Positions 32,576-54,736 of a stretch of 64,000 nt of DNA are shown one piece after another (within the stretch, counting starts at the first letter, position 1; each line of letters opens with the position of its first letter). A model generated the notes under the pieces. It worked only from the letters and a program-made list of their open reading frames with translations, searched no databases and had not been told where the DNA came from. Made by a program: the position numbers and the translations under genes. The DNA is from an uncultured Prevotellaceae bacterium (GTDB lineage: Bacteria; Bacteroidota; Bacteroidia; Bacteroidales; Muribaculaceae). The DNA lies in assembly GCA_900318345.1 (NCBI GenBank), contig ONKD01000021.1:1-64000 (forward strand). The letters are read 5' to 3'.

Positions 32576-32658
32576 GCAAACCGAACGTCATGATATTAGC
32601 ATCGACGGCTAAGGTGTCGCCAAATTTATGCAAACATAAAGACCCGTAACTCAAAACA

Positions 32659-34755
32659 ATGCGTAAAACCGTTGTAATAGCGTTTATGAACCTTATATGT
32701 GCCCTGTGTGTGATTGCCCAGGACGCACCGCTCGCTGGTTCACTTGCCGAACAAGATTCGGCGCTTGCCGCTGTGGGTCATGGCAGGCTGGACTCGATGC
32801 AGTATATCCAGAATGTCATTATCTATGGCCGTCGCCCCTATGAGGAAGTGATACCAGCCCAGGTGCTCACCGGCAAGCAACTCGAAGGACTGAACAGTCA
32901 CTCGGTGGCCGATGCTGTGCGTTATTTCGCTGGGGTGCAACTCAAGGATTACGGCGGCGTGGGGGGGCTCAAGACGGTTGATATACGCTCGATGGGTACC
33001 AATCATCTGGGTGTCTTCTACGACGGCATACAGATTGGTAACGCTCAAAATGGTCAAGTGGATTTGGGAAAATTTTCTCTTGACAATATTGAGGAAATCT
33101 CGCTTTACAACGGTCAGCGCAGTAGTATTTTCCAGAGCGCTAAAGATTATGGATCGGCGGGCACCATTTACCTGCGCACTCGTCGACCGAAGTTTAAGCC
33201 GGGAAAACGCGACAACCTCAACGTGTCGTTCAAGACCGGTTCATTTGGCTTGGTAAATCCTAGCGTGCGATGGGAGCACAAGTTGAACAAACACATGAGC
33301 CTGTCGGTCAACAGTGAGTTCACTTACGCTACGGGGCAGTACCACTTCCGTTACCGCAAGCACTATAGCGACGGCACGCTGGCTTGGGACACGACTGCCG
33401 TCCGCCGCAATGGCGAGGTGCGTTCCTGGCGTGTCGAGGGAGGCTTGTTTGGCGTGATGAATGGTGGCCAGTGGCATGCCAAGGCCTATTACTATGATGG
33501 CAGTAAAGGCATCCCTGGCGCTATAGTGAATAATGTGTGGAAACATGCTCAAAAGCAGTGGGACCGCAACTTTTTTGTCCAAGGGGCTTTTCAACGCCGA
33601 CTAACCGACCGTTATGAACTGATGGTTAACGCCAAGTACTCGCGCGATTACCTCCATTACTTGAATCCTGATACCACATTAATGTATATCGATAACGAGT
33701 TCTGGCAGGACGAGATATACATCTCCACAGCCAACAAGTATAACATCCTCACCGATTGGGACGTGAACCTGTCGGTGGACTACCAGTGGAACAGTCTTGA
33801 CGCGACACTGACGGGCTTTGGTTACCCCATACGCCATACGGTGCTCACGGCCCTGGCAACGGCTTGGAGCTGGCACGGCTTTAAGGCCCAGGGTAGTTTG
33901 CTCTACACATTGGTTAACGACCGTTCGTCGGCGCGCAGTGGCGGTGTGGTTGTGGGTAAGATGAACCGTTATTCCAACAAGGTGACGCCTGCCGTTTTTC
34001 TGAGCTGGCAACCCTGGCTGGAGCGGGATTTCAACTTGCGGGCCTATTACAAGCGCATCTTCCGTATGCCCACGTTCAACGACCTGTATTACACCGACAT
34101 GGGCAATATCACGCTTAATCCCGAGTATGCCACGCAATATAATGTGGGCTTCCTTTATCGTCTGCTCACCAGCGATGGCTTCCTGGCGGGTGTCAAGTTT
34201 AGTGCCGACGCCTATTACAACTACATTACCGACAAAATCATCGCTGTGCCCAAGGGAACAGGCCAGTATCGATGGATGATGATGAACGTGGGCAAGGTGA
34301 AAATCCGCGGCATTGATGCGAGCGCGCGAACCACCCTGCGTTTTCCCGCCGATGTGGTGATGGATATTAACCTGAGTTACACCTATCAGCGGGCTCAAGA
34401 CTATACCAATCCCGCTGACAACGAGGACGGCGGCACCTACAAGGGGCAACTCGCTTACATCCCCTGGCACAGCGGCTCGGTGGTGGGACATCTGAACTGG
34501 CATGACTTTGATTTGAACTATAGTTTTATATATGTGGGGGAACGCTATCACACTAGCGCTAACACCCGCGAGAACCATGAGCAGCCGTGGTACACCCACG
34601 ACCTCTCGGCAGGTTATGTTTTCCGTTTGGGCAAGACAACGACCCTGAAAGTGTCGGGCGAGGTGAACAATCTGTTCAATCAGTACTATGATGTGATATT
34701 GAACTATCCCATGCCAGGCTGCAATTATAAACTCATATTGAAATTTGACATTTGA
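32659..34755 (+). CDS. TonB-dependent receptor, BtuB-like (cobalamin uptake)
   Basis: 698 residues. Signal peptide (VVIAFMNLICALCVIAQ). Plug domain at about 45-170 (QVLTGKQLEGLNSHSVADAV, then VDIRSMGTNHLGVFYDG). A 22-strand type barrel follows and ends with the C-terminal aromatic strand KLILKFDI. The substrate call, cobalamin or a corrinoid, rests on the riboswitch directly upstream and the BtuG-like gene directly downstream, whose start overlaps this stop by 4 bases. It imports B12 through the outer membrane using TonB. Confidence 0.88.
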   Translation: MRKTVVIAFMNLICALCVIAQDAPLAGSLAEQDSALAAVGHGRLDSMQYIQNVIIYGRRPYEEVIPAQVLTGKQLEGLNSHSVADAVRYFAGVQLKDYGGVGGLKTVDIRSMGTNHLGVFYDGIQIGNAQNGQVDLGKFSLDNIEEISLYNGQRSSIFQSAKDYGSAGTIYLRTRRPKFKPGKRDNLNVSFKTGSFGLVNPSVRWEHKLNKHMSLSVNSEFTYATGQYHFRYRKHYSDGTLAWDTTAVRRNGEVRSWRVEGGLFGVMNGGQWHAKAYYYDGSKGIPGAIVNNVWKHAQKQWDRNFFVQGAFQRRLTDRYELMVNAKYSRDYLHYLNPDTTLMYIDNEFWQDEIYISTANKYNILTDWDVNLSVDYQWNSLDATLTGFGYPIRHTVLTALATAWSWHGFKAQGSLLYTLVNDRSSARSGGVVVGKMNRYSNKVTPAVFLSWQPWLERDFNLRAYYKRIFRMPTFNDLYYTDMGNITLNPEYATQYNVGFLYRLLTSDGFLAGVKFSADAYYNYITDKIIAVPKGTGQYRWMMMNVGKVKIRGIDASARTTLRFPADVVMDINLSYTYQRAQDYTNPADNEDGGTYKGQLAYIPWHSGSVVGHLNWHDFDLNYSFIYVGERYHTSANTRENHEQPWYTHDLSAGYVFRLGKTTTLKVSGEVNNLFNQYYDVILNYPMPGCNYKLILKFDI

Positions 34756-35912
34756 TGAAGCGCAATCTACATATCATTGGCTTGGCCCTGGTCATCTTGA
34801 CGATGCTGGCGGGATGTCGAGAGGAAGAGACGATTTTCCTGCCAGAGCATGTGCCTGTGGCCCAACCTGAATTCAGCGACATCGAGGGGTTTTACCTGTT
34901 GTGTGAGGGCAATATGGGATGGAACAAGGCGACACTCGACTACTATGACTACGCCGCTGGCGAGTACATCCGCAACATCTTCTCCTATGCTAACCCCAAC
35001 GTGCCCAAGGAGATGGGCGACGTGGGCAACGATATGGGCATCTATGGCAGCAACCTGTTTTGCGTCATCAATTGCTCTAACAAGGTTGATGTGCTTGACA
35101 AGTACACCTGCCGCAAAAAATACCAGATCGATATCCCCAATTGCCGCTTCATCCGTTTCTATGGCGGCTATGCTTATGTGACGAGTTATGCCGGTCCTGT
35201 GCAGATCAATCCCAACTATGAGCAGCGGGGCTATGTGGCCAAAATCGACACCGTGACGATGCAGATTGTCGATACCTGTCTCGTGGGCTTCCAACCCGAT
35301 GAACTGGAAATTGTGAATGGCAAGATTTATGTCGCCAACTCGGGCGGCTACATGGTGCCTAACTACGAGAACACCCTGTCGGTCATCGATGTGGCAACAT
35401 TCAAGGAAGAACGCCGCGTCCCCATTGCCATCAACCTGCAATGGGTCAAGGGTGATTCCCATGGCATGTTGTGGGTAGCGTCGCGTGGTGACTACTACAC
35501 CAAGCCTAGCAAGATCTATGCCTATGACACGCGCAAGAATCTACTTGTTGACAGCATCGATTGCCGTGTGAGCAACATGTGGCTTCACGGCGACTCGCTC
35601 TATGTGGTGAGCACCGAGTGGAGCTATGTGTCGATGAGCAACCACTTCTCCTATGCCATCATTAACACCCAAACCCGCGAAAAGGTGTGCGACAATTTTA
35701 TTACCGATGGCACCGACAGCGAGATTGTTGTCCCTTATGCCGTGGCGGTCAATCCGCTCTCGGGTGATATCTATGTGACAGATGCCAAGGATTATGTGTC
35801 ACCTGGACGCCTTTACTGTTTTGACCGTTATGGCGTGAAGAAGTGGGATGTGCGCACCGGCGATATCCCTGCCCATTTTGCATTCTTGGGACATAATATG
35901 AATGAACATTAA
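34752..35912 (+). CDS. BtuG-like YncE/DUF5074 beta-propeller lipoprotein
   Basis: 386 residues. Lipobox LAGC with Cys22. The mature part is a series of propeller blades (GNDMGIYGSNLFCVINCSNK, YVAKIDTVTMQIVDTCLVG, LEIVNGKIYVANSGG, LSVIDVATFKEERRV). In Bacteroides the surface lipoprotein BtuG, also a seven-bladed propeller encoded beside BtuB, captures B12 with very high affinity and hands it to BtuB. The matching fold, location and riboswitch control make the same job likely here. B12-binding residues cannot be verified from sequence alone. Confidence 0.8.
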   Translation: MMKRNLHIIGLALVILTMLAGCREEETIFLPEHVPVAQPEFSDIEGFYLLCEGNMGWNKATLDYYDYAAGEYIRNIFSYANPNVPKEMGDVGNDMGIYGSNLFCVINCSNKVDVLDKYTCRKKYQIDIPNCRFIRFYGGYAYVTSYAGPVQINPNYEQRGYVAKIDTVTMQIVDTCLVGFQPDELEIVNGKIYVANSGGYMVPNYENTLSVIDVATFKEERRVPIAINLQWVKGDSHGMLWVASRGDYYTKPSKIYAYDTRKNLLVDSIDCRVSNMWLHGDSLYVVSTEWSYVSMSNHFSYAIINTQTREKVCDNFITDGTDSEIVVPYAVAVNPLSGDIYVTDAKDYVSPGRLYCFDRYGVKKWDVRTGDIPAHFAFLGHNMNEH

Positions 35913-35923
35913 AATAATATAAT

Positions 35924-37135
35924 ATGAAGAAGATGAGAAACATTCTGCTAGCGTTGATGGCCGTGTTGACCACACTGACCATGTGGGGCAACCATCCGTG
36001 GCTTTCCCGCGTCTATGAATACCGTCCTGCACCAGGGCAGTTCGTCAATACCATGCCCGTTTATAGGGTGGGGGAACCGTTGGATAGCGTTTTGGCTCGG
36101 TGTGAGGCCAGCATTTGTGGGCGGATTGATACCACCACAACAACCTTTCATGGCGTGGAATACACCCGCATCGACACCGTTTGGGCCGAGGGCATGATCA
36201 CGCTTGGCGGTTACGGTGGCTATGTGGTGGTGGCTTTTGACCATCCGGTGGTCAATATGCACGATTATGATTTCGAGATCTGGGGCAATGCCTTCTACAG
36301 TGACCAATACTCGGGTGGTGGCAGCTGCGAGCCTGGTATCGTCATGGTGGGCGTGGATGTCGATGGTGACGGCGTGCCCAGTGACGGTGACAAGTGGTAT
36401 GAACTGGCTGGCAGCGAATATGACCATCCCACCACCCAGCACGATTACAGCATCACCTACTACCGCCCCGACGATGGCAAGGCTCCTACGCCCAGCCGCG
36501 TGGATCCTAGCCTTTGCGACACGACTTACATCCGCTGGACCAGTAACGACGTGAACACCGATAGCACTAGTGGCTACATGAGCCGCAATACATTCCACAA
36601 CCAGCCCTATTGGCCCATGTGGATTCAGGATGAGACGCTGACTTTCACAGGCGAGAAACTGCGTTGCAATGCCGTAAATGCGGGTAGCAATGGAAGCAAC
36701 GCTTACTATGTGCTCGAGAATTTTGCATGGGGCTATGTGGATAACCTGCCCAACAATCCCGCACGCCAACCGGTCGAGGGTTACTATAATCCGGGTTTTA
36801 AAATCGACTGGGCCGTGGATGAGCGGGGCCACCATGTGAACCTCACCCACATCGATTTCATCAAGGTGTATAACGCCCTCAACCAGTATTGTGGATGGAT
36901 AGGGGAGACCTCAACCGAGGTCGCCGGCGGTATTGACTACCATCCTGACGCAGAGATGCCTGAGCCCATTGACGGCGACGTGAATGGCGACGGTGAGGTC
37001 AACATCAGCGACGTGAATGCGGTGATCGATATTGTCCTTTCGGCATCGGTGATTCCTGCCGGTGACGTGAATGGCGACGGTGAGGTCAACATTAGCGACG
37101 TGAACTCGGTTATCGATAGCATTTTGACACTTTAG
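35924..37135 (+). CDS. B12-locus surface protein with dockerin
   Basis: 403 residues. Signal peptide (LLALMAVLTTLTMWGN). The mature protein begins YEYRPAPGQFVNTMP, a segment that recurs in the second B12 locus at 50152. A beta-sandwich-like region follows (GGYGGYVVVAFDHPVVNMHD, then GGGSCEPGIVMVGVDVDGDG, then NTFHNQPYWPMWI). Two dockerin-like repeats (DVNGDGEVNISD twice) close the protein. It is the third gene of the riboswitch operon, 11 bases after the BtuG-like gene. It is probably a surface B12 or cofactor-handling accessory; its exact role is not established. Confidence 0.8.
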   Translation: MKKMRNILLALMAVLTTLTMWGNHPWLSRVYEYRPAPGQFVNTMPVYRVGEPLDSVLARCEASICGRIDTTTTTFHGVEYTRIDTVWAEGMITLGGYGGYVVVAFDHPVVNMHDYDFEIWGNAFYSDQYSGGGSCEPGIVMVGVDVDGDGVPSDGDKWYELAGSEYDHPTTQHDYSITYYRPDDGKAPTPSRVDPSLCDTTYIRWTSNDVNTDSTSGYMSRNTFHNQPYWPMWIQDETLTFTGEKLRCNAVNAGSNGSNAYYVLENFAWGYVDNLPNNPARQPVEGYYNPGFKIDWAVDERGHHVNLTHIDFIKVYNALNQYCGWIGETSTEVAGGIDYHPDAEMPEPIDGDVNGDGEVNISDVNAVIDIVLSASVIPAGDVNGDGEVNISDVNSVIDSILTL

Positions 37136-37344: not shown

Positions 37345-37920
37345 ATGAAGAAAATTTTTACGCTTCTTTTCGTTGCTATGATGGCTGTAGCTGCTCAGGC
37401 TCAGGTGACAATTCCCGATTGCCAGGTTGTGTTGGTAACAGCTGATGGTACTGAGACTCCTTATGATTTGATTCCTGGCTGGAACACTGATCCCGTCAAC
37501 ACTTTTGACCTTATTTATGAATATGGTTATGTTGAGGTAGCTCATTTCTATTTCCTGATTGACGGTGTAGAGTATGGCGCACCCGGTGAGGAGCCTGTTT
37601 TCGTTGACGATAACATGATGGGCTATGGAGATCAGACTCCTCTGGTTGCTAATAGCAAGAATACTTACTATGTTGGTAATGGTTATAGCTATAACCTCGG
37701 TGTTCACCCTGTTATCAATGACGATTTGGAGATCGAAATGTTCATGGCTTATGTTGCTAAGGGTGGTCCCGTGAGCGTTGATGAGCTCGCTGCCAAGACC
37801 GTAGCTAACGTTCGCTACTACAACATGGCTGGTCAGGAGATGCAGGAGGCTAATGGTATGACCATCCAGGTTACCACCTACACCGACGGCACCACCAACG
37901 CTGTTAAGGTGATCAAGTAA
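37345..37920 (+). CDS. small secreted protein with conserved C-terminal tail
   Basis: 191 residues. Signal peptide MKKIFTLLFVAMMAVAAQA is almost the same as in the dockerin family that follows at 39895. The middle has no family I recognise (FDLIYEYGYVEVAHFYFLID). The last 45 residues (TVANVRYYNMAGQEMQEANG, then IQVTTYTDGTTNAVKVIK) resemble the short beta-rich C-terminal tail common at the ends of secreted Bacteroidales proteins, similar in style to type IX sorting tails. Here it stands in place of a dockerin. Own promoter and terminator. Confidence 0.75.
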   Translation: MKKIFTLLFVAMMAVAAQAQVTIPDCQVVLVTADGTETPYDLIPGWNTDPVNTFDLIYEYGYVEVAHFYFLIDGVEYGAPGEEPVFVDDNMMGYGDQTPLVANSKNTYYVGNGYSYNLGVHPVINDDLEIEMFMAYVAKGGPVSVDELAAKTVANVRYYNMAGQEMQEANGMTIQVTTYTDGTTNAVKVIK

Positions 37921-39894: not shown

Positions 39895-41487
39895 ATGAAG
39901 AAATTCTTTTCTCTTCTTTTTGTGGCCATTGTAGCATTTGCTGCTCAGGCCGCAACGACTAACCTGTATCAGGATGGTCCGATGACTTCCAGTGAGCAGG
40001 TTCCCTTCTACGGTATGTATATGGACACTCCGGGCACTCGTGTGCAGCTGATTTATCCCGAGTCAGCATTGACCGACCTGGTGGGCCTCCCCATCAACTC
40101 GATTACTTTCTACATTCTCAACGATGGTGGAAATCCTGTGAATGGTGGTAAGGTGAATGTGTTGGTTGGCACTACCGATCAGACTTCGTTCCCCTCATCG
40201 GGTGCAACTCCCATCGATGGCCTGACTAAGGTCGCTGAAATCACGATGGTTCAGGGTGCATCTTCTTTGCCCATCGTTTTCGACCAGCCTTTTGTTTACA
40301 CTGGTGGCAATTTGGTGATTGAGACCGAAGTGGTAGAAGCTGCTGAGAATTATGCTGCGATTACTTTCCAGGGTGCTTATGGCAGCAATAATGCTATAAC
40401 CTATACCTATAGCTGGCAAACCCGTGGCTTCTATCCCATGGCAACTGTTGATTACACACCTCAAGACTATGCCGCAACTGTACGTCCTGCTGCTCTCGAC
40501 TTTGGCCGTATCTATCCCGAGCAGACTGCAGATCTGACCTTCAGGATTGACAACAAGGGCGCTAATGCCTTCACTCCCGCCTTTAGCGGTATCCAGGCTC
40601 CCTTCAGTGTATCTCCCGAGCCCGCCGAGATTCCTGGTAGTGGTTTCGTGACTTACACTGTTACCTTTGCTCCCACTGCTTTGGGTGAATACAGCCAGAC
40701 CTTAGCTATCGACTGTGGCGCTGCCGGCCAGTTCCAGGTAGCACTGAGCGGTGCTCAGGTTGAGGTTCCCGCCGAGGTTGTTGTTGCTGAAGGCACTTCA
40801 ACCAACAAGATGGTTCCCGTTGATCCTGAGAACTATGAGCACGTTGGTGGTGGCGCTTTCTCTCAGATGATTTATCCTGCCGATATGATGACCGACCTGG
40901 CTGGTAAGAAGATCACCGGTATCAGGTTCCACACCAAAGAGGCCATGACCTTGAATGGCGGTAACATCCAGCTCTCGATTAAGGAGGTTGAGCAAGATTT
41001 CTTCGGTGCTCCAGAAGCAATTACCGGCATGACCGTCGTTGCCAATGGCGCTCCCGTTGCTGGTGAGAACGAGCTCGTGTTTGAATTCACCGAGCCCTAT
41101 GAGTATCAGGGTGGCAACCTGGCTATTGAGGCTCTCGTGACCGCTCAGGGTAACTATAGCTTCAGTGACGCTTATCTGGGTGTTGAAAGTACAGGTGCAT
41201 CCTTTGCTCACATCTATAATTTCGGTTGGGAAGAAGGCGTAGTTAACTTCCTGCCCATGGCAACCTTCAGCTACGTGAAGGAGGATACTCCCGAGCCTCA
41301 GGGCATGCGTGGTGACGTGAATGGTGACGACGCTGTTACTATCAAGGACGTGACTGTGCTGATTGACCTCTTGCTGAGTGGAGCCGAGGCACCTGCAACT
41401 GCTGACTGCAACCTTGACGAGTCAGTGACCATCAAGGATGTGACTGTCCTCATCGACTACCTGTTGAGTGGCAACTGGCCCGAGTAA
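39895..41487 (+). CDS. tandem-family secreted protein A: two beta-sandwich modules, ASH domain, dockerin
   Basis: 530 residues. Signal peptide MKKFFSLLFVAIVAFAAQA. Two copies of one module (about 25-185 and 295-455) share the pattern 'YP-x-aliphatic... G..I..I.F... GG.v.v... F..PF.Y.GGNL.IE'. Between them lies a choice-of-anchor-D / ASH-type domain (LDFGRIYPEQTADLTFRID, then TYTVTFAPTALGEYSQTLAI). The last 60 residues are a dockerin pair (DVNGDDAVTIKD and DCNLDESVTIKD). First of four adjacent paralogues; no enzymatic motif is visible. A surface adhesin or glycan-binding role is inference. Confidence 0.82.
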   Translation: MKKFFSLLFVAIVAFAAQAATTNLYQDGPMTSSEQVPFYGMYMDTPGTRVQLIYPESALTDLVGLPINSITFYILNDGGNPVNGGKVNVLVGTTDQTSFPSSGATPIDGLTKVAEITMVQGASSLPIVFDQPFVYTGGNLVIETEVVEAAENYAAITFQGAYGSNNAITYTYSWQTRGFYPMATVDYTPQDYAATVRPAALDFGRIYPEQTADLTFRIDNKGANAFTPAFSGIQAPFSVSPEPAEIPGSGFVTYTVTFAPTALGEYSQTLAIDCGAAGQFQVALSGAQVEVPAEVVVAEGTSTNKMVPVDPENYEHVGGGAFSQMIYPADMMTDLAGKKITGIRFHTKEAMTLNGGNIQLSIKEVEQDFFGAPEAITGMTVVANGAPVAGENELVFEFTEPYEYQGGNLAIEALVTAQGNYSFSDAYLGVESTGASFAHIYNFGWEEGVVNFLPMATFSYVKEDTPEPQGMRGDVNGDDAVTIKDVTVLIDLLLSGAEAPATADCNLDESVTIKDVTVLIDYLLSGNWPE

Positions 41488-41513
41488 TCATCAGGCAAAA
41501 TACTAATTTATAG

Positions 41514-41545
41514 GGGGCAGGCTCATTGAGGGTCTGCCTCTTTTT
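41514..41545 (+). terminator. rho-independent terminator
   Basis: An 11-pair stem including three wobbles (41514-41524 with 41530-41540), then TTTTT. Confidence 0.8.
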
Positions 41546-41689
41546 GTGTTCATTTTGTATAGTTGTCTCTTTTTGTTGTTTTTTACTAATTTATTGATTA
41601 TTAGTTTGTTGTAAAATCACTTAATGATTGCCCCACTATTGTTTAAGGTGATTTGTTTGTATTTTTATTTTTTTTAGTCAATAGGGGCT

Positions 41690-41719
41690 TTGCCATGTCA
41701 GGTTAATGTTGTACATTTG
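41690..41719 (+). promoter_or_regulatory. Bacteroidetes-type promoter
   Basis: TTG at 41690-41692, 19-base spacer, TACATTTG at 41712-41719, upstream of the gene at 41795. Confidence 0.75.
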
Positions 41720-41794
41720 CCGCAAGTTGATACTACTGATTTTTAACCTTTGCTTTATTTATAAACCTTTTCAACAATTAATTCATTATTTTTT

Positions 41795-43423
41795 ATGAAG
41801 AAAGTATTTAAACTCATGTCCGCAGCGCTGATGGCGCTTGCTATGTTCATGCCCGCACAGGCCGATGAACTGACGTTGTATGACGCCTCCACACAGGTTG
41901 TAGTTTACAACGAGTATGTGCCCATTTACGGTTACTACTTTGATGCGGCCAACTTTATCACCGAGATTATCTATCCCGCAAGCGATCTCGAGGCTATGCA
42001 GGGCGCCGCAATCACATCGTTGAAATTCTACATCGGTGGCTTGGATGGTAACACGCTCAGTGGCGGTAAGGTAGGTGTTGGAATCGGCACTACCGACCAG
42101 AATGAATTCCCTGGTTACAACCCTGATCCGATTCTTGGCTTGACCGAGGTTGCCGAGATCACGATGACCCCCGGTGAGACCGAACTCGTGATTAACTTCA
42201 ATGAGCCTTTCGTCTATGAGGGTGGCAATATTGTTGTTTCAACCATCGTTAAGGAGGCCAGCGGTTATGCTGATTTGACCTTCGCCGGTGAAGAGAAGTC
42301 GTACAACGCTTCGATGTACAGGCTTCCCGCCAGTGGTAGCTCTTATGCCCAGCCGTGGGCTCCTAAGACCACCTTCGGCTATGAGAAAGGTGACGACTTT
42401 GCAGTGATCAGCACCTCGGCAATTGACTTCGGTACGCTCTATCCCGAGATGACTGCTGCTCCTCAGACTTTCGTTCTGAAGAACATGGGTAAGAACGCCT
42501 TTACTCCCGTGTTTAGCGCACTGTCTGCTCCCTTCAGCGTAACTCCTGCCGCTACCGAGATTGCTCCTGGTGCCTCGATGGAGTTCACCGTTACCTTTGC
42601 TCCCACCGAACTTGGTGAATATGCTCAGACCTTGGCTATCGACTGTGGTGCAGCCGGTCAGTTTGAGGTTGCCCTTACTGGCGTATTGGCCACCATGCCC
42701 TCAGTGATCACCGTTTGTGACGGTACCGCTACCAATAGTTATCTGCCTGTCTATGGCTACTATTATGACGCTATATTCAAGGACCAGATGATCTATACCG
42801 CCGAGATGCTTGCTCCTCTGGCAGGTAAGAAGATTACCGAGGTAACGTTCTATCCTACCGCTCCTCTGACCTTCACGGGTGGTCAACTGCAGCTTTCGTT
42901 CAAGGCCGTTGACCAGCAGGGCTTCACCAGCTACACTGCTCTGACCGACCTCACTGCCGTGGCCACCTGGGTACCCGGTGACAGTGAAAACGAGCTTGTC
43001 TTCACGCTTGATGAGCCCTTCGAGTACGCCGGTGGTAACCTCGCCATCGAGGTCTGCAATATTGAGAAGGGAAACAATTATCCCAAAACTTATTTCTATG
43101 GCCAGGACATAGCTGACTATTATCCCAGCTACTACGAGTATGGTGTATCTTCGACCTCGAACTATCTCGATCACTTCCTGCCCAAGGTTGGTTTCGGTTA
43201 TGAGGCCGGTGACACTCCCGAGCCTCAGGGTCTGCGTGGCGACGTAAACTTGAATAATGATGTAACTATCGCTGACGTTACAGCCCTTATCGACTACTTG
43301 CTGAGCGGTGATGCTACTGGTATCAGCCTCGAGAATGCAAACTGCAATCTCCAGGATGATGTTACCATCGCCGACGTGACTGCCCTCATCGACTATCTGC
43401 TGAGTGGCAACTGGCCTGAATAA
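41795..43423 (+). CDS. tandem-family secreted protein B: two beta-sandwich modules, ASH domain, dockerin
   Basis: 542 residues with the same layout as the 39895 protein. Signal peptide, module (VPIYGYYFDAANFITEIIYP, then LVINFNEPFVYEGGNIVV), ASH-type domain (IDFGTLYPEMTAAPQTFVL), second module (LPVYGYYYDAIFKDQMIY), then a dockerin pair. The dockerin loops are degenerate: DVNLNNDVTIAD has Asn for the usual Asp at position 5, and NCNLQDDVTIAD has Asn at position 1 and Gln at position 5. The protein ends in GNWPE, like its neighbour. No enzymatic motif is seen. Confidence 0.82.
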   Translation: MKKVFKLMSAALMALAMFMPAQADELTLYDASTQVVVYNEYVPIYGYYFDAANFITEIIYPASDLEAMQGAAITSLKFYIGGLDGNTLSGGKVGVGIGTTDQNEFPGYNPDPILGLTEVAEITMTPGETELVINFNEPFVYEGGNIVVSTIVKEASGYADLTFAGEEKSYNASMYRLPASGSSYAQPWAPKTTFGYEKGDDFAVISTSAIDFGTLYPEMTAAPQTFVLKNMGKNAFTPVFSALSAPFSVTPAATEIAPGASMEFTVTFAPTELGEYAQTLAIDCGAAGQFEVALTGVLATMPSVITVCDGTATNSYLPVYGYYYDAIFKDQMIYTAEMLAPLAGKKITEVTFYPTAPLTFTGGQLQLSFKAVDQQGFTSYTALTDLTAVATWVPGDSENELVFTLDEPFEYAGGNLAIEVCNIEKGNNYPKTYFYGQDIADYYPSYYEYGVSSTSNYLDHFLPKVGFGYEAGDTPEPQGLRGDVNLNNDVTIADVTALIDYLLSGDATGISLENANCNLQDDVTIADVTALIDYLLSGNWPE

Positions 43424-43445
43424 TCTAGGCAAAATTCATATCAAT

Positions 43446-43480
43446 GAGGCTGGCTCTTTCAGGGGTCGGCCTCTTGATTT
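43446..43480 (+). terminator. rho-independent terminator
   Basis: An 11-pair stem with three wobbles (43446-43456 with 43463-43473), then a T-rich tail. The same hairpin recurs at 44944-44978. Confidence 0.75.
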
Positions 43481-43517
43481 ATATGATATAAAGTGCTGAG
43501 ATTTAGGCAGAATAATT

Positions 43518-43547
43518 TTGTTGTGAATATATTTTAGTTTACCTTTG
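43518..43547 (+). promoter_or_regulatory. Bacteroidetes-type promoter
   Basis: TTG at 43518-43520, 19-base spacer, TACCTTTG at 43540-43547, upstream of the gene at 43644. Confidence 0.75.
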
Positions 43548-43643
43548 TGGCAGTAATTAATGCAAGACTATTAACATTAGTAGGATACTGATAGTATTTC
43601 GTATTATTCATTTTATAATTAACATTTTTATCTTTTATCATTT

Positions 43644-44915
43644 ATGAAAAAGTTTTTAACACTTATTGCTGTAGCAGCTATGGCATTTGCTGCTCAAGCC
43701 GACATCTTGACAGTTGCCGAAGGTACTGACGAGGCTCAGTACGCTCCGTTTTATGGCTTTCAGATGGATGCCTTGGGCGCTAAAAGTCAGGTGATCTATC
43801 CCGCCGACATGCTCGCTGACATGAATGGTGGAACCATCACCGAGATCAAGTTCTATCCCACCCAAGCCTTCGGAGCCCTGGGCTCAGGTAACTTGCAGAT
43901 TTCTCTCAAGGAGGTTGAACAGGATCGCTACACTTCCACCACGCTGGTAACCGACGCCACTGTTGTTGGCAATGCTTATCCCGTTCAAGGCAATATCGAG
44001 TGGGTCATCGTTTTTGACCAACCCTTTGAGTACCATGGCGGCAACCTCATGGTTGAGACCGAACTCATTCAGGTAGGCTCTTTTAAGGCCACTAAGTTCT
44101 TTGGCCAATCATTCTCTTATGCCGTTGGTCTCGCCCAATACAAGTATACTTGGGGTACCGAATATTACTATGAGGCTGAACAGGTTCTCCCCAAGGCAAC
44201 CTTCATCTATGAGGGTGGCGGTAGTCAGGAAGAAGGTATTGCCAACCTGAGCGAGGCTAACGCATTGGAGGACAATGCTGAGTTCACCTTCGACGGCGAC
44301 GCTGTCGTTACTTTCTTTAAAGATGGTTTATTGTTCCTGCGCGACGAGAGCGGCTACGCCCAGATTAGCGGTGTTGAGGGCACCTTCGAGAATGGTCAGG
44401 TGCTAAGCCAGGGTTGGAATGCCACCAAGACCAGCATTGTTAACGGTTGGGTTAAGTACATCAATGCTGCAGGCCTCAGCGCCAGCGGTGAGACTAATGC
44501 CGAACTGGCTGCAGCCCAGAAACTCACCGGCGCCGTAGATGAGAGCATGCTCAACGCCTATGTTTATATTGAGAATGCATCGCCAAGTAGTAGCGGTACC
44601 CCAATACTTCCTCAACGCTATTTCACGCTGCCTGACAACTCTAAACTTTATGCAACTGACTGCTTGTGGCCCACGAATTGGGACGCCGGAAGTTACAATG
44701 TCTATGGTATTCTTTGCAAGGATCGCGGCACAGTGAGGATCAATCCCGTTGCTTTCGAGCCGTATGTTGAGCCTCAGGGTCTGCGTGGTGACGTGAACAT
44801 GAATAATGATGTTACCATCGCTGACGTTACCGCCCTTATCGACTACCTGTTGAGTGGTGATCCCACTGGTATCAGCCTCGAGAACGCAAACTGCAACCTC
44901 CAGGATTTGGCCTGA
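43644..44915 (+). CDS. tandem-family secreted protein C: one module, OB-like domain, truncated dockerin
   Basis: 423 residues. Signal peptide MKKFLTLIAVAAMAFAAQA. One beta-sandwich module (about 22-195: YAPFYGFQMDALGAKSQVIY, then IVFDQPFEYHGGNLMVETEL). Next comes a region resembling the OB-fold type repeats of Bacteroidales surface proteins (NLSEANALEDNAEFTFDGDA, then LFLRDESGYAQISG). The dockerin has a complete first repeat (DVNMNNDVTIAD), but the second breaks off after NCNLQD and ends Leu-Ala-stop. Compared with the 41795 gene, a net 53 bases covering the second repeat are missing and the old stop region is read in another frame. The half-dockerin may be non-functional. Confidence 0.82.
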   Translation: MKKFLTLIAVAAMAFAAQADILTVAEGTDEAQYAPFYGFQMDALGAKSQVIYPADMLADMNGGTITEIKFYPTQAFGALGSGNLQISLKEVEQDRYTSTTLVTDATVVGNAYPVQGNIEWVIVFDQPFEYHGGNLMVETELIQVGSFKATKFFGQSFSYAVGLAQYKYTWGTEYYYEAEQVLPKATFIYEGGGSQEEGIANLSEANALEDNAEFTFDGDAVVTFFKDGLLFLRDESGYAQISGVEGTFENGQVLSQGWNATKTSIVNGWVKYINAAGLSASGETNAELAAAQKLTGAVDESMLNAYVYIENASPSSSGTPILPQRYFTLPDNSKLYATDCLWPTNWDAGSYNVYGILCKDRGTVRINPVAFEPYVEPQGLRGDVNMNNDVTIADVTALIDYLLSGDPTGISLENANCNLQDLA

Positions 44916-44943
44916 ATAATCATCAGGTGATATTCATATCAAT

Positions 44944-44978
44944 GAGGCTGGCTCTTTTAGGGGTCGGCCTCTTGTTTT
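44944..44978 (+). terminator. rho-independent terminator
   Basis: An 11-pair stem (44944-44954 with 44961-44971), then a T-rich tail; nearly the same sequence as 43446-43480. Confidence 0.75.
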
Positions 44979-45017
44979 ATTTATTTTATAATGTGCTGAG
45001 ATTTAGGTGGAATAATT

Positions 45018-45047
45018 TTGCGGTGAGGAAATTTTAGATTACTTTTG
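45018..45047 (+). promoter_or_regulatory. Bacteroidetes-type promoter
   Basis: TTG at 45018-45020, 19-base spacer, TACTTTTG at 45040-45047, upstream of the gene at 45147. Confidence 0.75.
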
Positions 45048-45146
45048 CGGCAAAAATTAATGTACATCTATTGAAACAGATTAGGATGCTAACGAGATTT
45101 TGTATTATTCATTTTTTATAATTAACATTTTATCTTTTTATCATTT

Positions 45147-46580
45147 ATGAAAAAGTATTTCACTCTTATCGCTGTGGCCGCTATGGCATTTGCCGCTCAG
45201 GCCACCGAGTGGACCGCTGCTGACGGCACCACAACAAGTGAGTATGCACCCGTCTATGGTTACAACTTCGAAACCAATCAGCACAACCAGATGCAGTATC
45301 CCGCTTCTGAGTTGACTGGTATCGCAGCTGGCACCGAAATCACTGCCGTGAAGTTCTATACCAGCACCCCCAGTCTGGTGAACGCTCTGGGTGGCACTGT
45401 AACGGTTTCGTTGGCTAATATGGAAGATGTGACTCCTTGGACTCCTAACGCATGGGGTGGCGTTTACGGCGACTTGTTGGATGTTGCTGTGACCGCTGTC
45501 GCTACTGTAACTCCTTCTGCTGATGAGAATGGCGTTTGGACCATTACCTTCGATGCTCCCTTTACCTACACTGGTAATGCTCTGTTGATTGACGTTCTGT
45601 CTGTTGCCGGTGATTATCAGGATACCGAATTTTACGCTAAAGAGATGGGTTCATACTTAATCATGAGCACTTATGGCTACGCTGGCAGCACTAAGGGTGA
45701 TAATAAATTACCCAAGGCTACCTTTGTCTATGGCAGTGACGAGCCCATTGAGATCACTTCTTACACCGTAGTAGGTCCTGAGTCGATCTTTGGCAGCAAC
45801 TGGAATACCGAAGATACCAACAACGACATGGTTCTTGACGAGGCAACTGGCGTTTACAGCTGGAACAAGACTGGCGTAACCCTCTATGGCAACTTCGACT
45901 TCAAGGTTGTTGGTAACCACAGCTACAGCATCTATGAGTGGCCCGTTGGTCCCTACAACTGGACTGCTGTCGTAGAAGAGGAAGGCATTTACAGCATCGC
46001 TATCACCTTCGACCCCAATGCTGAGGAGGACTACCGCATCACCTGCACCTTGATCAAGACTGGTGACATCGATCCCGTTGAGCACACCTATACCGTTGCC
46101 GGTACCACCAACCTGTTTGGTAGCTTCTGGGATCCCAGTGACACTGCTAACGACATGGTTGAGGGTGAGGATGGTATCTATACCTGGACCAAGAGTGACG
46201 TTGTCTTTGAGGAGGCTGCTAACGTTGAGTTCAAGGTCGTTCAAGACCACGCTTGGGATTATGCTTGGCCCTCAAGCAACTGGATCTATGAGGTAACCGA
46301 GGCCGGTACCTATGACTTCGTGATTACTTTCAATGCCGAGACCAAGGAAATCACCTGCACTGCTACCAAGCATGACGCTCCTCAGGGTATGCGTGGTGAT
46401 GTGAACATGAGCAATGATGTTACCATCTCCGACGTTACCTCCCTCATCGACTACCTGTTGAGCGGTGATGCTACTGATATCAGTCTCGAGAACGCTGACT
46501 GCAACCTTGCTGATGGTGTTACCATCGCCGACGTGACTGCTCTGATTGACTACCTGCTGAGCGGCGTTTGGGCCGAGTAA
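45147..46580 (+). CDS. tandem-family secreted protein D: one module, two X25/SusE-like repeats, dockerin
   Basis: 477 residues. Signal peptide MKKYFTLIAVAAMAFAAQA. One beta-sandwich module (about 22-195: APVYGYNFETNQHNQMQYPA). Two similar repeats follow: TVVGPESIFGSNWNTEDTNN ... and TVAGTTNLFGSFWDPSDTAN ..., each with FKVV and a Trp-containing strand. These look like the X25/SusE-type starch-binding-like beta-sandwiches. A dockerin pair ends the protein (DVNMSNDVTISD, DCNLADGVTIAD, then GVWAE). Carbohydrate binding is a reasonable inference from the repeats but is untested. Own promoter and terminator. Confidence 0.82.
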   Translation: MKKYFTLIAVAAMAFAAQATEWTAADGTTTSEYAPVYGYNFETNQHNQMQYPASELTGIAAGTEITAVKFYTSTPSLVNALGGTVTVSLANMEDVTPWTPNAWGGVYGDLLDVAVTAVATVTPSADENGVWTITFDAPFTYTGNALLIDVLSVAGDYQDTEFYAKEMGSYLIMSTYGYAGSTKGDNKLPKATFVYGSDEPIEITSYTVVGPESIFGSNWNTEDTNNDMVLDEATGVYSWNKTGVTLYGNFDFKVVGNHSYSIYEWPVGPYNWTAVVEEEGIYSIAITFDPNAEEDYRITCTLIKTGDIDPVEHTYTVAGTTNLFGSFWDPSDTANDMVEGEDGIYTWTKSDVVFEEAANVEFKVVQDHAWDYAWPSSNWIYEVTEAGTYDFVITFNAETKEITCTATKHDAPQGMRGDVNMSNDVTISDVTSLIDYLLSGDATDISLENADCNLADGVTIADVTALIDYLLSGVWAE

Positions 46581-49762: not shown

Positions 49763-49784
49763 CAGCAACAAATTGATTGTGTTG

Positions 49785-49985
49785 AGGTTCTTCTCGCCGT
49801 TTATCGACGAGGGGATGAAAAGGGAATCAGGTGAGAGTCCTGGACAGTACCCGCTGCTGTAACTCCTTGATGACACATCGCTCGGCATCATGCCACTGGT
49901 TGTGAGACACTTGTGTATCGCATCATCACCGGGAAGGCGCCGTCGCGATGGGGGAGAAGTCAGAAGACCTGCCTACACACAGCCA
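49785..49985 (+). promoter_or_regulatory. cobalamin riboswitch 2
   Basis: The B12 box AGTCAGAAGACCTGCC lies at 49958-49973. The conserved GATGAAAAGGGAATCAGGTG, TCCTGGACAG, CCCGCTGCTGT and CCGGGAAGG elements lie upstream. The segment from 49986 to the start at 50152 is a long untranslated leader or expression platform. It controls the dockerin-tailed genes at 50152, 51273 and probably 52988. Confidence 0.93.
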
Positions 49986-50151
49986 CCAGTAGTGGTTCAC
50001 GCGGCATTTGGACCCTGGCAAAGAAAGATGATGCGGACACACGCTGCCCACATTCTCAAGAGATTACCATTGACCAGCACATGGCCAATCATGTCGCATG
50101 AATTCACGCTAAAACGTGAAGGTTGAACATTTTTATATATATGATAGTGAC

Positions 50152-51276
50152 ATGAGAAAAGCTCTACATCTTGCTGTGGTAATGGTGCTGACCACGATGG
50201 CGGCTCAAGCCGATAACTCACCCTACATCGCTCGGGTATATGATTATTTGCCCGCGCCAGGACAGTTTGTTAACGTTTTCCCAGCTTACAAGCCCGGATA
50301 TACCCAGGACAGCATCAACGCGCAGCTGGAGGATGCCCTGTGCGGAAAGCTGGGCGGCACGGTCAGCCTGGGCAGCTATGGCGGTTACATCGTTTTTGGC
50401 TTTGACCATCCTGTGGTGAATATGCATGGCTATGACGTTAAAATCTATGGCAACGCCATGCAGAGCGAGGCCGTGCCCGGCATGGCCGGTGGCAGTTGCG
50501 AACCTGGCATCATCATGGTGGGCGTGGATAATGACGGCGATGGCATGCCCGGTGACGGAGACCTGTGGTATGAAATCAAGGGCGCTGATTATGACCGATG
50601 CCAACACAGCTACGAGATTACCTACTACAAGCCTGACGAGAACAAGGTGCGTGTGCCCCATGATAGCTGGCGATTCATCACCGATGTTGAGTATGTCTAT
50701 TGGACCAGCAACGATGAGAATCCCGATAGCACGAGCGGTTATGTGTGGCGCAATTCATTCCATAACCAGCCTTATTGGCCCTTGTGGCTTGAGGACACCG
50801 TGATGACCTTTAGGGGAACCAAACTGCCCAACACCGCTATCGACATGAGCGGAGGCAACGGAAACAACTGGTTCCAGCCCTTCTTTGGCTTGGGCTATGT
50901 TGATAACTTGCCCAACGGCCAGGAACCTGGTTTCATGATTGACTGGGCGGTTGATGAGGAGGGTAACTCAGTATCGCTCGACCATATTGACTTCATCAAG
51001 GTTTATTGCGGGCAGTTGGACTACTGCGGTTGGCTGGGCGAGGTATCGACCGAGTTTTGCGGTGCCGAGGATTTGCATCCCGATGCCGTGATGACGTTAC
51101 CTGGAGACGTGAATTGTGACAACGCGGTGACCATCAGCGATGTGACCACTCTCATCGACTACCTGTTGGGCAGCGAAGTGGCTCCGTTTGGCGCAGTGGC
51201 TGCCGATGTTAATCATGATGGCGGTATCAGTATTGCCGATGTGACCGAATTGATTGATCAACTGTTAGGCTCATGA
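50152..51276 (+). CDS. B12-locus surface protein with dockerin (paralogue of 35924)
   Basis: 374 residues from the ATG at 50152, chosen over an upstream ATG at 50116 because it begins a clean signal peptide (MRKALHLAVVMVLTTMAAQA). The mature start YDYLPAPGQFVNVFPAYK, the core GGYIVFGFDHPVVNMHGYD, GGSCEPGIIMVGVDNDGDG and NSFHNQPYWPLWL match the 35924 protein along its length. Two dockerin-like repeats end it (DVNCDNAVTISD, DVNHDGGISIAD). It is the first gene after the riboswitch and overlaps the next start by 4 bases. Confidence 0.85.
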   Translation: MRKALHLAVVMVLTTMAAQADNSPYIARVYDYLPAPGQFVNVFPAYKPGYTQDSINAQLEDALCGKLGGTVSLGSYGGYIVFGFDHPVVNMHGYDVKIYGNAMQSEAVPGMAGGSCEPGIIMVGVDNDGDGMPGDGDLWYEIKGADYDRCQHSYEITYYKPDENKVRVPHDSWRFITDVEYVYWTSNDENPDSTSGYVWRNSFHNQPYWPLWLEDTVMTFRGTKLPNTAIDMSGGNGNNWFQPFFGLGYVDNLPNGQEPGFMIDWAVDEEGNSVSLDHIDFIKVYCGQLDYCGWLGEVSTEFCGAEDLHPDAVMTLPGDVNCDNAVTISDVTTLIDYLLGSEVAPFGAVAADVNHDGGISIADVTELIDQLLGS

Positions 51277-52946
51277 AAAAGGTAATATTATTTGTATTCA
51301 TTGCCCTGGTGACAATAGTGTCCCAGGCCCAGGACTTCACGTTTACTAATGGCATTATCTTCATTAATGAGGACCGCTATGGCGCCAATCAAGGCTCCAT
51401 CAACTACTTTAATTTTGATTATAATGAGATGGAGTATAACGTGTTCGCATTTGTCAACCCTGGTGTGAAGCTGGGTGTGACATCTCAACACGGACAACTG
51501 TTTGGCGGGCGCCTCTTCGTCGTGAGCAAGCAGGCTAACGGCAACGAGTCCAGCGGTAGCACTGTGGGCTCGAGACTGGCCGTGCTTGATGGTGCGACAC
51601 TCGTTCAGCGGGCCAGCATTCTGCGCTTTGGCGCAACAATGGACAGCGTGTATGACGGGCGTGCCTATTGCGCTGTCAATAACGAGAAGGGTTATATCTC
51701 GACTAACGCCGGCATTTTTGTGCTGGATGTCGCCAGCATGACAGTTAGAGGCCCCATCCAGGGCACGCAGTCCAGCGCTAGGGGCGACTACAACAGCCTG
51801 TATTATGACCAGTGCGGCGATATGGTGAGATTTGGACAGTATGTCTTTGCCGTGCAGCAGGGCAAGGGTCTGCATGTGATTGATCCCGAAACCGATGCTG
51901 TTGTCGCTACCTTGCCGTTCCCTGACATCGTCACAGTGTTTGTCACCGCTGCCGGCAAGCTCTATGTCGCCAATAACAGCCGTGAGGTCTATGACTTTGG
52001 TACAGGTCCATTTGAGGCCAATTTCACGCAGATAGACCCGGTGGCCTTCGAGATAAAGGGTGTGCATAGCCTGCCTGAGGACAAGGGCCCAGTGTGTGCA
52101 TGGGGTGCATGGCATGCGCGCATGTTATGTGTAGATCCTGTTGCCGAGCGTGTATATTTCAACCACGAGGAATATCAGAACTTCATCAGTAGCTATGATT
52201 TCAGTTCGCGTGAGTTTATCGACACGCTCATCCTCCTGCCCGAGGGCGTGGAGACCAATTGGGACGGAACTAAAGAGCGTCAAGGCCTATACGCTTCGGC
52301 ATTGAGTTTTGACCCCCACACGGGCGACATGGTGGTGCAGACTACCGAGGCAGCACCGATGTATGCTTACCAGAACTTCAATCACAACTGGGTATTGTTC
52401 TATAACGTGATGACAGGTGAACTCAAACGCCAAGTGCGCTTGCAGGACGCCTATTGGTTCCCTGCCTTAGCGGTTTATCCTGACTTGTATGCACCCACTG
52501 TTAGTGTCAGTGACATGACGTTGTCGAGAGGGACGAGCAGTGAGGTCGATTTGCTCCATGCAGTTCAAGATCCCGATAACATGGCAGCACTGGCCGTGAC
52601 AACGGCTAAAAGCCGTGATGAGTCGATTGCGCGTGCTCGGGTCGTTGGTCTTAAGCTTGTCATCGAGGCTGTGGCTCCTGGTCGAGCAACGGTCGATGTG
52701 ACCACCGACAGCAACGGCCAGCTGGCAGAAACAGCGTTTGTGGTTACAGTGACGGGTGGCTCCACGCCGGGTGATGTGAACATGGACGGCAGGATAAGTA
52801 TTGACGATGTGACTGACCTTATCGATATCCTGCTAGGGTCGGTGCTCACGGTCTATGACATGGGAGCTGCCGATGTAGATAGGGACGGTAGAATCAGCAT
52901 CAGTGATGTGACCGACCTTATCGACATGCTATTAATCAGAAATTGA
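51273..52946 (+). CDS. DUF5074/BtuG-like beta-propeller with Ig-like domain and dockerin
   Basis: 557 residues. Signal peptide (VILFVFIALVTIVSQAQ) without a lipobox. Residues about 20-415 form propeller blades (GGRLFVVSKQANG, AGIFVLDVASMTVRGPI, GLHVIDPETDAVVATLPF, KLYVANNSREVYDFG). An Ig-like segment (about 415-495: VDVTTDSNGQLAETAFVVTV) and two dockerin repeats (DVNMDGRISIDD, DVDRDGRISISD) follow. Relatives in Bacteroides B12 loci are surface lipoproteins; here the lipid anchor is absent and a dockerin-like tail is present. B12 or corrinoid binding is inferred from the riboswitch and fold. Confidence 0.8.
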   Translation: MKKVILFVFIALVTIVSQAQDFTFTNGIIFINEDRYGANQGSINYFNFDYNEMEYNVFAFVNPGVKLGVTSQHGQLFGGRLFVVSKQANGNESSGSTVGSRLAVLDGATLVQRASILRFGATMDSVYDGRAYCAVNNEKGYISTNAGIFVLDVASMTVRGPIQGTQSSARGDYNSLYYDQCGDMVRFGQYVFAVQQGKGLHVIDPETDAVVATLPFPDIVTVFVTAAGKLYVANNSREVYDFGTGPFEANFTQIDPVAFEIKGVHSLPEDKGPVCAWGAWHARMLCVDPVAERVYFNHEEYQNFISSYDFSSREFIDTLILLPEGVETNWDGTKERQGLYASALSFDPHTGDMVVQTTEAAPMYAYQNFNHNWVLFYNVMTGELKRQVRLQDAYWFPALAVYPDLYAPTVSVSDMTLSRGTSSEVDLLHAVQDPDNMAALAVTTAKSRDESIARARVVGLKLVIEAVAPGRATVDVTTDSNGQLAETAFVVTVTGGSTPGDVNMDGRISIDDVTDLIDILLGSVLTVYDMGAADVDRDGRISISDVTDLIDMLLIRN

Positions 52947-52987
52947 AGAATAACTATTTAGTTTAACCTTTAAATACATTAAAAACA

Positions 52988-54571
52988 ATGAAGAAATTAT
53001 TTACATTTGCTGCATGTGCCCTGATGGCTTCGGCCGCTTGGGCTAATGTGATTACACTTGACTTGAACAAGCCGATTAATCCTGCAACCATTGAGTATGG
53101 TGCCAACAATGTGTGGACCGAGTGCTACAATGATGTGGATTATACGTGGCTCGAGTTCGGTGACGAGAATGGCGAGTTCATGCTCTCGCACCTTATTGAC
53201 GGCGAGGGCGCCTCGTGGGGTGGCTCCTACTGGGACGGTTTCGCCCCCGCTATCGGTGGTGACATCACCGACTATGGTCAGCCTGGCAGCGGTGGTACGT
53301 GGACAACCAACTTTGGTGGCTGCATGGCCGGTGGCGGTTGCGTCATCAATGCTGACGGTTCGGTGACTGCCGACCCCAATCAGCCCTATTTCGTGGCATA
53401 TTACAGCAGCTGGGCTATGGAAGGTCCCAGCAATCAGGTGATGTTTGTGGATGCAAACGGCGGCACGACTTTTGAGCCCGTGGGCGTGTATGTGTGCAAC
53501 CACCCCTGGCCCTATTACGGTTGTGCGCATGGTGACGATTTCGGCCGTGCTTTTGAAGAGGGTGACTATTTTGAGCTCACCGCCCATGGTGTTGATGCCG
53601 AGGGTAATGAGACGACCGTTTCGATGAATCTCATTGAGTTTACCGATGGCGAGCTCAAGGCTGCTAATGACTGGACTTTCTTTGACCTGTCGAGCCTGGG
53701 CGAGGTAGTATCGGTTTACTTCACTTTGACTTCGACCGATGTGGGTGCCTATGGTATGAACACCGCCGCTTATTTTTGCATGGACAAGTTCCAGGTGAAG
53801 GGTGCCGCTCAGGCCAGCGAATTGACCGTTGCCGACGGTGACGAAGTAGGCGAGTATGCTCCTGTCTTTGGTTACAATTATGATATGCCTCAGCACAACC
53901 AGATGCAGTATCCTGCTGCTGAGTTGGCTGGTATGGCCGAAGGCACCGAAATCACCGCTATGAAGTTCTATACCGGTACCATCAATGAGGTGAACAATCT
54001 GGGTGGCTCTGTGAAGGTTTCATTGGCTAATTTGGAAGATGTAACCCCTTGGAGCGTTGACGGCTATGGTTATGCTTCTGGCGACTTGCTCGATGTTGAT
54101 GTTACTACAGTTGCAGCTACTGTAGTTCCTGCTGCCGATGAGAATGGCGTTTGGACCATCACCTTCGATGCTCCCTTTACCTATGCTGGTGGAGCTCTGT
54201 TGGTAGAAATTCAGTCCCTTGAGGAAGGTAGCTGGCAGAATACCAATTTCTATGGTAAGGCGTTTGACGCTCACTATGTTTTGAGTGTTTATGGTTATGC
54301 TGATTCCAAGAAGACTCAGAAGGTTCTGCCTAAGGTGACTTTCACTATTAATGGTAGCGACACACCTCAACCTCAGGGTCTGCGTGGTGACGTGAACGTC
54401 AATAATGAGGTTTCTATCGCTGATGTGACCGCCCTCATCGACTACCTGTTGAGCGGTGATGCAAGTGCAATCAGCCTCGAGAATGCAGACTGCAACCTTC
54501 AGGATGGTGTTACTATCGCCGACGTGACTGCCCTCATCGACTATCTGCTGAGTGGCAACTGGGCCAACTAA
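52988..54571 (+). CDS. DUF4465 protein with tandem-family module and dockerin
   Basis: 527 residues. Signal peptide (LFTFAACALMASAAWA). Residues about 25-265 are a DUF4465 domain (GASWGGSYWDGFAPAI, GGTTFEPVGVYVCNHPW, WTFFDLSSLGEVVSVYFTL, GAYGMNTAAYFCMDKFQVKG). Residues about 275-465 are the same module found in the 39895-46580 family (APVFGYNYDMPQHNQMQYPA), closest to the 45147 protein. A dockerin pair ends it (DVNVNNEVSIAD, DCNLQDGVTIAD). Only 41 bases separate it from the propeller gene, so riboswitch control is likely. It joins the B12 locus and the tandem family in one protein. Confidence 0.82.
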   Translation: MKKLFTFAACALMASAAWANVITLDLNKPINPATIEYGANNVWTECYNDVDYTWLEFGDENGEFMLSHLIDGEGASWGGSYWDGFAPAIGGDITDYGQPGSGGTWTTNFGGCMAGGGCVINADGSVTADPNQPYFVAYYSSWAMEGPSNQVMFVDANGGTTFEPVGVYVCNHPWPYYGCAHGDDFGRAFEEGDYFELTAHGVDAEGNETTVSMNLIEFTDGELKAANDWTFFDLSSLGEVVSVYFTLTSTDVGAYGMNTAAYFCMDKFQVKGAAQASELTVADGDEVGEYAPVFGYNYDMPQHNQMQYPAAELAGMAEGTEITAMKFYTGTINEVNNLGGSVKVSLANLEDVTPWSVDGYGYASGDLLDVDVTTVAATVVPAADENGVWTITFDAPFTYAGGALLVEIQSLEEGSWQNTNFYGKAFDAHYVLSVYGYADSKKTQKVLPKVTFTINGSDTPQPQGLRGDVNVNNEVSIADVTALIDYLLSGDASAISLENADCNLQDGVTIADVTALIDYLLSGNWAN

Positions 54572-54590: not shown

Positions 54591-54683
54591 AGTTGCCGAT
54601 GTAATAAGTCCTTTGACGGTGTGAAAGTTGCTGTTCCGACCAATACCGACGGCACAACCAGCACTGCAAGGGCAATGAAATGA
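54591..54683 (+). pseudogene. possible remnant of a secreted-protein C-terminal tail
   Basis: Just after the stop of the 52988 gene, a frame ending at a TGA (54681-54683) reads GVKVAVPTNTDGTTSTARAM-Lys. This resembles the C-terminal tail of the small secreted protein at 37345 (IQVTTYTDGTTNAVKVIK). No start or upstream coding part remains. A decayed gene end is inferred; the similarity is short. Confidence 0.3.
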
Positions 54684-54736
54684 TCTATGCTTGATTGAAA
54701 AGTTATAAAGTATAGTATATAGTAACCATGATTGTG

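Follow-up and report, generated by a model that had tools for sequence, protein, structure and literature searches.

The second cobalamin riboswitch-led locus in a stretch of DNA from an uncultured Prevotellaceae bacterium (positions 1 to 64,000 of contig ONKD01000021.1, assembly GCA_900318345.1) encodes three proteins which, judged by sequence, all belong to families with published B12 binders and which all end in a dockerin. None of the three carries a recognisable lipobox, no receptor gene accompanies them, and just past the third gene lies the decayed remnant of an older C-terminus resembling the tails of the type IX secretion system (T9SS). The ligand-binding parts of this operon are ordinary and its address is unusual: its binder families are known and its mode of display is new, the latter being part of a genus-wide use of dockerins. 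Throughout, "the window" means the whole 64-kb stretch; its source genome amounts to 3.17 Mb in 82 contigs and is 90.6% complete, and its closest named relatives are rumen metagenome-assembled genomes labelled 'Muribaculaceae' and 'Prevotellaceae'.

The operon and its riboswitch

The features of the operon are as follows.

49768-49990, + strand: cobalamin riboswitch aptamer RF00174 (97.4 bits against a gathering score of 31.5)
50152-51276, + strand: BtuH-type B12-binding-domain protein with an ordinary-looking signal peptide and a dockerin (51100-51267)
51273-52946, + strand: DUF5074 beta-propeller, BtuK1-like, followed by an immunoglobulin (Ig)-like stretch and a C-terminal dockerin (52767-52934)
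52988-54571, + strand: DUF4465 (BtuJ-type) protein followed by an inserted module, MODC (about 53816-54352), and a C-terminal dockerin (54386-54550)

The initial annotation, made from the sequence alone, had placed a cobalamin riboswitch ahead of the operon, and a covariance-model search recovered it at full length (E 4.5e-23, model positions 1-189 of 189). It is one of three RF00174 matches in the genome, the others lying at 32351-32576 and upstream of btuR/cobO. The first gene is taken from its first ATG, a GTG start at 50116 being present in the list of open reading frames (ORFs), and it overlaps the second by 4 bases; scans for promoters and terminators returned counts close to those in shuffled sequence.

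When the proteins of the window were searched against Pfam (E<=0.1), Dockerin_1 exceeded its cut-off of 22.9 bits in all three operon products (40.3, 28.5 and 30.2 bits for those starting at 50152, 51273 and 52988, respectively), and neither a Plug domain nor a TonB-dependent barrel was found in any of them. Signal peptides were judged by eye together with a lipobox pattern search. No lipobox-like motif was detected in the three operon ORFs; it occurred in 4 of the 109 dockerin ORFs of the window and 80 related loci, a count in which overlapping loci enter twice. A cysteine at position 10 of the DUF4465 protein stands nearer the N-terminus than that of a usual lipobox would and is missing in several close relatives and present in others. 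The T9SS tail of NCBIfam (TIGR04183-type) matched none of the three proteins. The earlier description of three dockerin-tailed proteins with ordinary signal peptides, free of lipobox and TonB-dependent barrel, is borne out by these searches.

Relationship to known B12-binding proteins

The BtuH-type protein matched the H domain of Bacteroides thetaiotaomicron BtuG1 (8blw_B) with a phmmer E-value of 2.6e-55 and BtuH2 (7biz) at 5.7e-35. The likeness to these proteins (7BIZ, 8BLW) consists of a BtuH-type domain over about 285 residues, B12-controlled loci and five of the six B12-contacting residues given for BtuH in the available part of PMC8941943 (Gln333, Asn399, His476, Trp511 and Trp577), the sixth, Tyr510, being replaced by Asn239. 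According to the same part of that source, BtuH2 carries the export signal of a lipoprotein, and PKD domains are predicted ahead of its B12 domain, whereas the protein in the window is a bare domain with an ordinary-looking signal peptide and a dockerin.

The second protein scored 239.7 bits with DUF5074 of Pfam. It had been described as a propeller related to BtuG, with a structural comparison suggested; the propeller fold and family hold and the BtuG chains do match its structural model, but they rank behind BtuK1, which is the closest, and we rejected BtuG-related propeller as the best label. In the accessible portions of the literature BtuK1 (9S6C) and BtuG2 of B. thetaiotaomicron are predicted lipoproteins, whereas the propeller of the window has no lipobox, is followed by its Ig-like stretch and dockerin, and in relatives often stands fused behind the BtuH domain. 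BtuK2 does not bind cobalamin in the published work, as far as the available text describes it, despite its similarity.

The third protein is a DUF4465 protein, as first annotated (115.4 bits). It matched 4jqr at 2e-21 as well as BtuJ1 (9qpm/9fct), and a Foldseek search ranked 4jqr, BtuJ1 and BtuJ2 at the top; beyond the DUF4465 domain the AlphaFold2 model is poor (mean predicted local distance difference test score 63.9). The domain carries MNTAAY where BtuJ has the MNTPSY motif, so that its likeness to BtuJ1 and BtuJ2 (9QPM, 9FCT, 9I2L) lies in the domain and its MNTxxY loop; it differs in what follows, namely the inserted module and dockerin in the window and a T9SS-tail-like end in close relatives. 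Eight diverse DUF4465 proteins are described as binding B12 in the available parts of the published work. For the three proteins of the window themselves, B12 binding is a prediction.

Close relatives of the operon

The 80 loci compared with the window were retrieved by likeness to it and are hence biased toward it; 19 of them correspond in type to the second locus. A single ORF joins the BtuH domain to the propeller in 14 of these 19 (10 complete and four cut by a contig end, among which L037 was assigned from its last residues), and the remaining five have the two split, as in the window. Such frequent fusion suggests that the two work together. A single dockerin is present in all ten complete fused forms, and each half has its own dockerin in all five split relatives and in the window. 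RF00174 occupied the same place in each of the 10 loci searched among these 19 close relatives, so the association of riboswitch and operon is more than chance; among 10 wider loci searched it was found in nine, with none in L081.

Replacement of a C-terminal tail

The DUF4465 gene records how one C-terminal address was replaced by another. In 12 of 13 readable close relatives its product has no dockerin and a conserved T9SS-tail-like end (alignment A4), 'K.VAGV.Y.N.AGQ...G..IVVTTYTDGTTS..KV.K', the gene being cut off or absent at a contig end in the other 6 of the 19 loci. MODC and a dockerin are found on this protein only in L018 and the window. The profile built on A4 has 23 places in the genome, one of which falls just past the stop codon of the dockerin-tailed gene:

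54600-54680, + strand: decayed remnant of a T9SS-tail-like C-terminus (profile A4, 27.4 bits, E 8.2e-6, columns 28-54)

This stretch reads as the end of that tail, decayed and in a different frame. At the DNA level, 54604-54720 can be aligned to L026 10444-10565, which covers the intact tail and its 3' flank, and the same DNA scored 67 against L017, the best of 200 shuffles reaching 26; in L018 it is, by eye, decayed further. Because the relatives keep the T9SS-tail-like end and the window keeps its remnant, the dockerin has replaced another C-terminal address, and the gene is a genetic fossil of that change. The region of MODC (53812-54216) shares 317 identities, with 82 mismatches, with the neighbouring gene 45147-46580, and the simplest reading of the sequence is that a module-plus-dockerin cassette was inserted ahead of the old tail. 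In L017 the BtuH domain and propeller are 97% and 95% identical to those of the window, but the DUF4465 gene (9779-10756) is 74% identical and has the A4 tail, and in this pair the gene may have been exchanged separately.

How closely A4 is related to T9SS tails can be read from profile alignments with two other tail sets: A8 and A5 aligned with 92.9% probability, A4 and A8 with 37.5%, and A4 and A5 directly with 0.3%. TIGR04183, the T9SS type A sorting domain, was found in 9 of 10 members of A5, 1 of 12 of A8 and 1 of 19 of A4, the last a weak match at E 0.093.

The BtuH-domain ORFs of the 80 loci end in a dockerin in 41 cases, a T9SS-type tail profile match in 22, another tail in 10 and no tail in three, of which two have a lipobox; four are cut. 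The T9SS-type profile was built in this analysis from 22 sequences, with A5 and A8 as the underlying tail sets, and 19 of the 22 ORFs that it found are its own training rows. Many of the relatives outside the genus of the window have T9SS-type tails rather than lipid anchors. The initial annotation had supposed that B12-capture modules moved from lipid anchoring to dockerin attachment. Among the 35 readable relatives without a dockerin, however, the earlier state, where it is visible, is not a lipid anchor (22 match the T9SS-type profile, against two tail-less lipobox forms), and in the first riboswitch locus BtuG retains its lipobox and the BtuH-domain protein is already dockerin-tailed. We therefore rejected a lipid-to-dockerin step as the visible one, on the tails of the relatives and the remnant behind the DUF4465 gene.

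Dockerins across the genome and family

At least 149 places in the genome carry a dockerin (150 of 287 candidates were scored), and the same tail is found on an amylase, C10 and M6 peptidases and a leucine-rich repeat (LRR) protein. That dockerin attachment is specific to B12 was rejected on these numbers; what stands of the B12-capture operon proposed at first is the family membership of its proteins and the absence of lipid anchors and of an adjacent receptor. Among 119 genomes of the family, all seven of the genus of the window have at least 49 dockerins, G001, from another genus, has 31, and the remaining 111 have 0-9.

In the window and the 80 loci, no more than 12 residues separate the dockerin stretch from the C-terminus in 105 of 109 cases, and in none of the 109 ORFs did a dockerin occur together with an A4 or A5 tail-profile match. 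This exclusion is not strict genome-wide: at C62:12484-12864, an 878-residue ORF carries a TIGR04183 tail behind its dockerin. Two ORFs, L071 12501-13448 and L087 13574-14863, have a dockerin near the N-terminus, from residue 24. The T9SS protein SprA is present in the genome (611.6 bits).

The first riboswitch locus and the receptor

The first cobalamin riboswitch of the window leads a locus which includes a receptor.

32351-32576, + strand: cobalamin riboswitch (85.8 bits)
32659-34755, + strand: BtuB-like TonB-dependent receptor (Plug domain; TIGR01779 at 122 bits, under its cut-off)
34752-35912, + strand: BtuG-like propeller with the lipobox LAGC, read from the sequence (DUF5074, 40.5 bits)
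35924-37135, + strand: BtuH-domain paralogue with an ordinary-looking signal peptide and a dockerin (Dockerin_1, 31.3 bits)

The last of these is 56% identical to the first protein of the second operon, which agrees with the paralogy noted at the outset. The lack of a receptor in the second operon is likewise upheld, the sole genome match to this BtuB at E<=1e-10 being BtuB itself. B12 caught by the products of the second operon must thus reach the first locus, unless a further receptor is absent from the assembly.

Candidate cohesin-like partners

The cohesin family of Pfam was matched once in the genome, and a profile made from the matching protein and its neighbour found 17 cohesin-like modules in 13 ORFs. 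These candidate scaffold ORFs (L106-L114; contigs C59, C38, C36, C75, C52, C33 and C68) have one to three such modules each, and several have internal dockerins. The A4 profile recognises the ends of four of the 13 (73-86 bits), and another four have ends that, judged by eye, resemble T9SS tails; none of the nine TIGR04183 tails in the genome falls inside a cohesin-like ORF. The profile matched all seven genomes of the genus (2-17 modules) and 21 of 112 others, with none in G001. Across the 119 genomes, dockerins and cohesin-like matches occur together in 23, dockerins only in 20, cohesin-like matches only in five and neither in 71 (Fisher 1.4e-8), a co-occurrence which is partly trivial, as several genomes poor in dockerins have the two next to each other, within a single ORF or in neighbouring frames. 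On this sequence evidence, a surface assembly of cohesins and dockerins is possible.

Such an assembly would resemble cellulosomes in its C-terminal type I dockerins and in a few cohesin-like proteins, among them some that contain internal dockerins, and would differ from them in its vitamin-capture cargo, in the Pfam cohesin match of 1 of 17 modules and in a Bacteroidota host with a T9SS. A single cohesin is proposed to anchor dockerin enzymes to the cell in Ruminococcus albus (available part of PMC6118326).

Proposed role and alternatives

We consider it probable, with some reservation, that the operon supplies an accessory, non-lipidated, dockerin-displayed set of extracellular B12-capture proteins which feeds BtuB and BtuG of the first locus in trans. 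When B12 is scarce, the riboswitch would derepress the operon, and the BtuH-, BtuK- and BtuJ-type proteins would bind corrinoids outside the cell and pass them in trans to BtuB and BtuG. Their position outside would be set by the C-terminal dockerin, the tail used throughout the genus, which could attach them to surface proteins that bear cohesin-like modules and in some cases end in T9SS-tail-like sequences. The computations show the riboswitch, the families, the tails, the lack of an adjacent receptor and the tail exchange in the DUF4465 gene; the predicted parts of this scheme are binding of B12, its repressing effect on the operon, passage of the proteins through the outer membrane, the dockerin partner and the hand-over. 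The weak cohesin evidence weighs against it: the 16 remaining modules fall outside Pfam cohesin, and the cohesin-like profile matched no solved structure in the PDB.

The three proteins could instead be released as free corrinophores that bind B12 away from the cell, with a dockerin that is a relic or has no role in capture. They have neither a lipobox nor a T9SS-type tail, and vesicles of B. thetaiotaomicron are enriched in BtuJ, BtuK, BtuH and BtuL, for which a siderophore-like role is proposed in the available part of PMC12751083. Whether split or fused, however, every separate polypeptide has retained a dockerin of its own, so that the dockerin looks selected, and the abundance of dockerin places in the genome also speaks against this reading; we regard release as unlikely. 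A broader reading, in which the dockerin of the genus is a general extracellular address replacing T9SS-like tails, clients bearing dockerins bind to cohesin-like proteins whose ends are T9SS-like, and the three B12 binders are so assembled into a surface complex, is equally doubtful, because no cohesin-like ORF contains TIGR04183 and the C62 ORF carries both tails.

Retention in the periplasm, where proteins with a plain signal peptide would buffer B12 on its way from BtuB to the inner-membrane transporter, would account for the lack of a recognised outer-membrane export signal on the operon proteins, and dockerins are not known to have an export function. Yet of the 76 readable loci, 22 have an orthologous BtuH-domain protein that matches the T9SS-type profile (19 being training rows) and two have a lipobox form, and the amylase, peptidases and LRR protein that share the dockerin tail are of kinds that usually act outside the cell; a periplasmic location is accordingly improbable. 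Propellers of the XusB kind bind siderophores, and it is very unlikely, though conceivable, that the ligand here is another corrinoid or a metal chelate instead of B12.

Comparison with characterised systems

Those accessory B12 binders that have been characterised, in B. thetaiotaomicron, are predicted lipoproteins in the available parts of their descriptions; the window holds the same three families with a docking tail instead of a lipid. With the vesicle-linked BtuK, BtuH, BtuJ and BtuL set of that organism the window shares families K, H and J and B12 control (available part of PMC12751083). That set is described there as predicted lipoproteins, linked to vesicles and encoded beside btuB, whereas the operon in the window has no lipobox and no adjacent btuB. 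Operon 1 of B. thetaiotaomicron, in which btuK1, btuK2 and btuH1 stand ahead of a btuB1 with its own riboswitch and promoter (same part of that source), is in part a precedent for a unit that lacks a receptor.

Dockerins in rumen Bacteroidetes are already known, since dockerin-rich bins have been reported and discussed as cellulosomal (available part of PMC6071333); another rumen study, in the portion accessible (PMC5831590), found no cohesins or dockerins, as in other Bacteroidetes genomes. In the open-licence literature searched we found no dockerin on B12-capture proteins, and the word 'dockerin' is absent from the main text of the B12-binder papers compared. If the display model is true, cohesin-dockerin attachment would be widened from fibre degradation to vitamin capture. 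The operon also makes testable the question of how an outer-membrane bacterium with so many dockerins gets such proteins outside.

Neighbouring genes

Four genes in 39895-46580 (starting at 39895, 41795, 43644 and 45147) have dockerin-type tails, those of 41795 and 43644 being just below the Pfam cut-off and 43644 being truncated. MODC of the third operon protein is common to 41795, 43644 and 45147. Directly after the first locus, a small secreted-looking protein (37345-37920) with no Pfam match ends in an A4-type tail.

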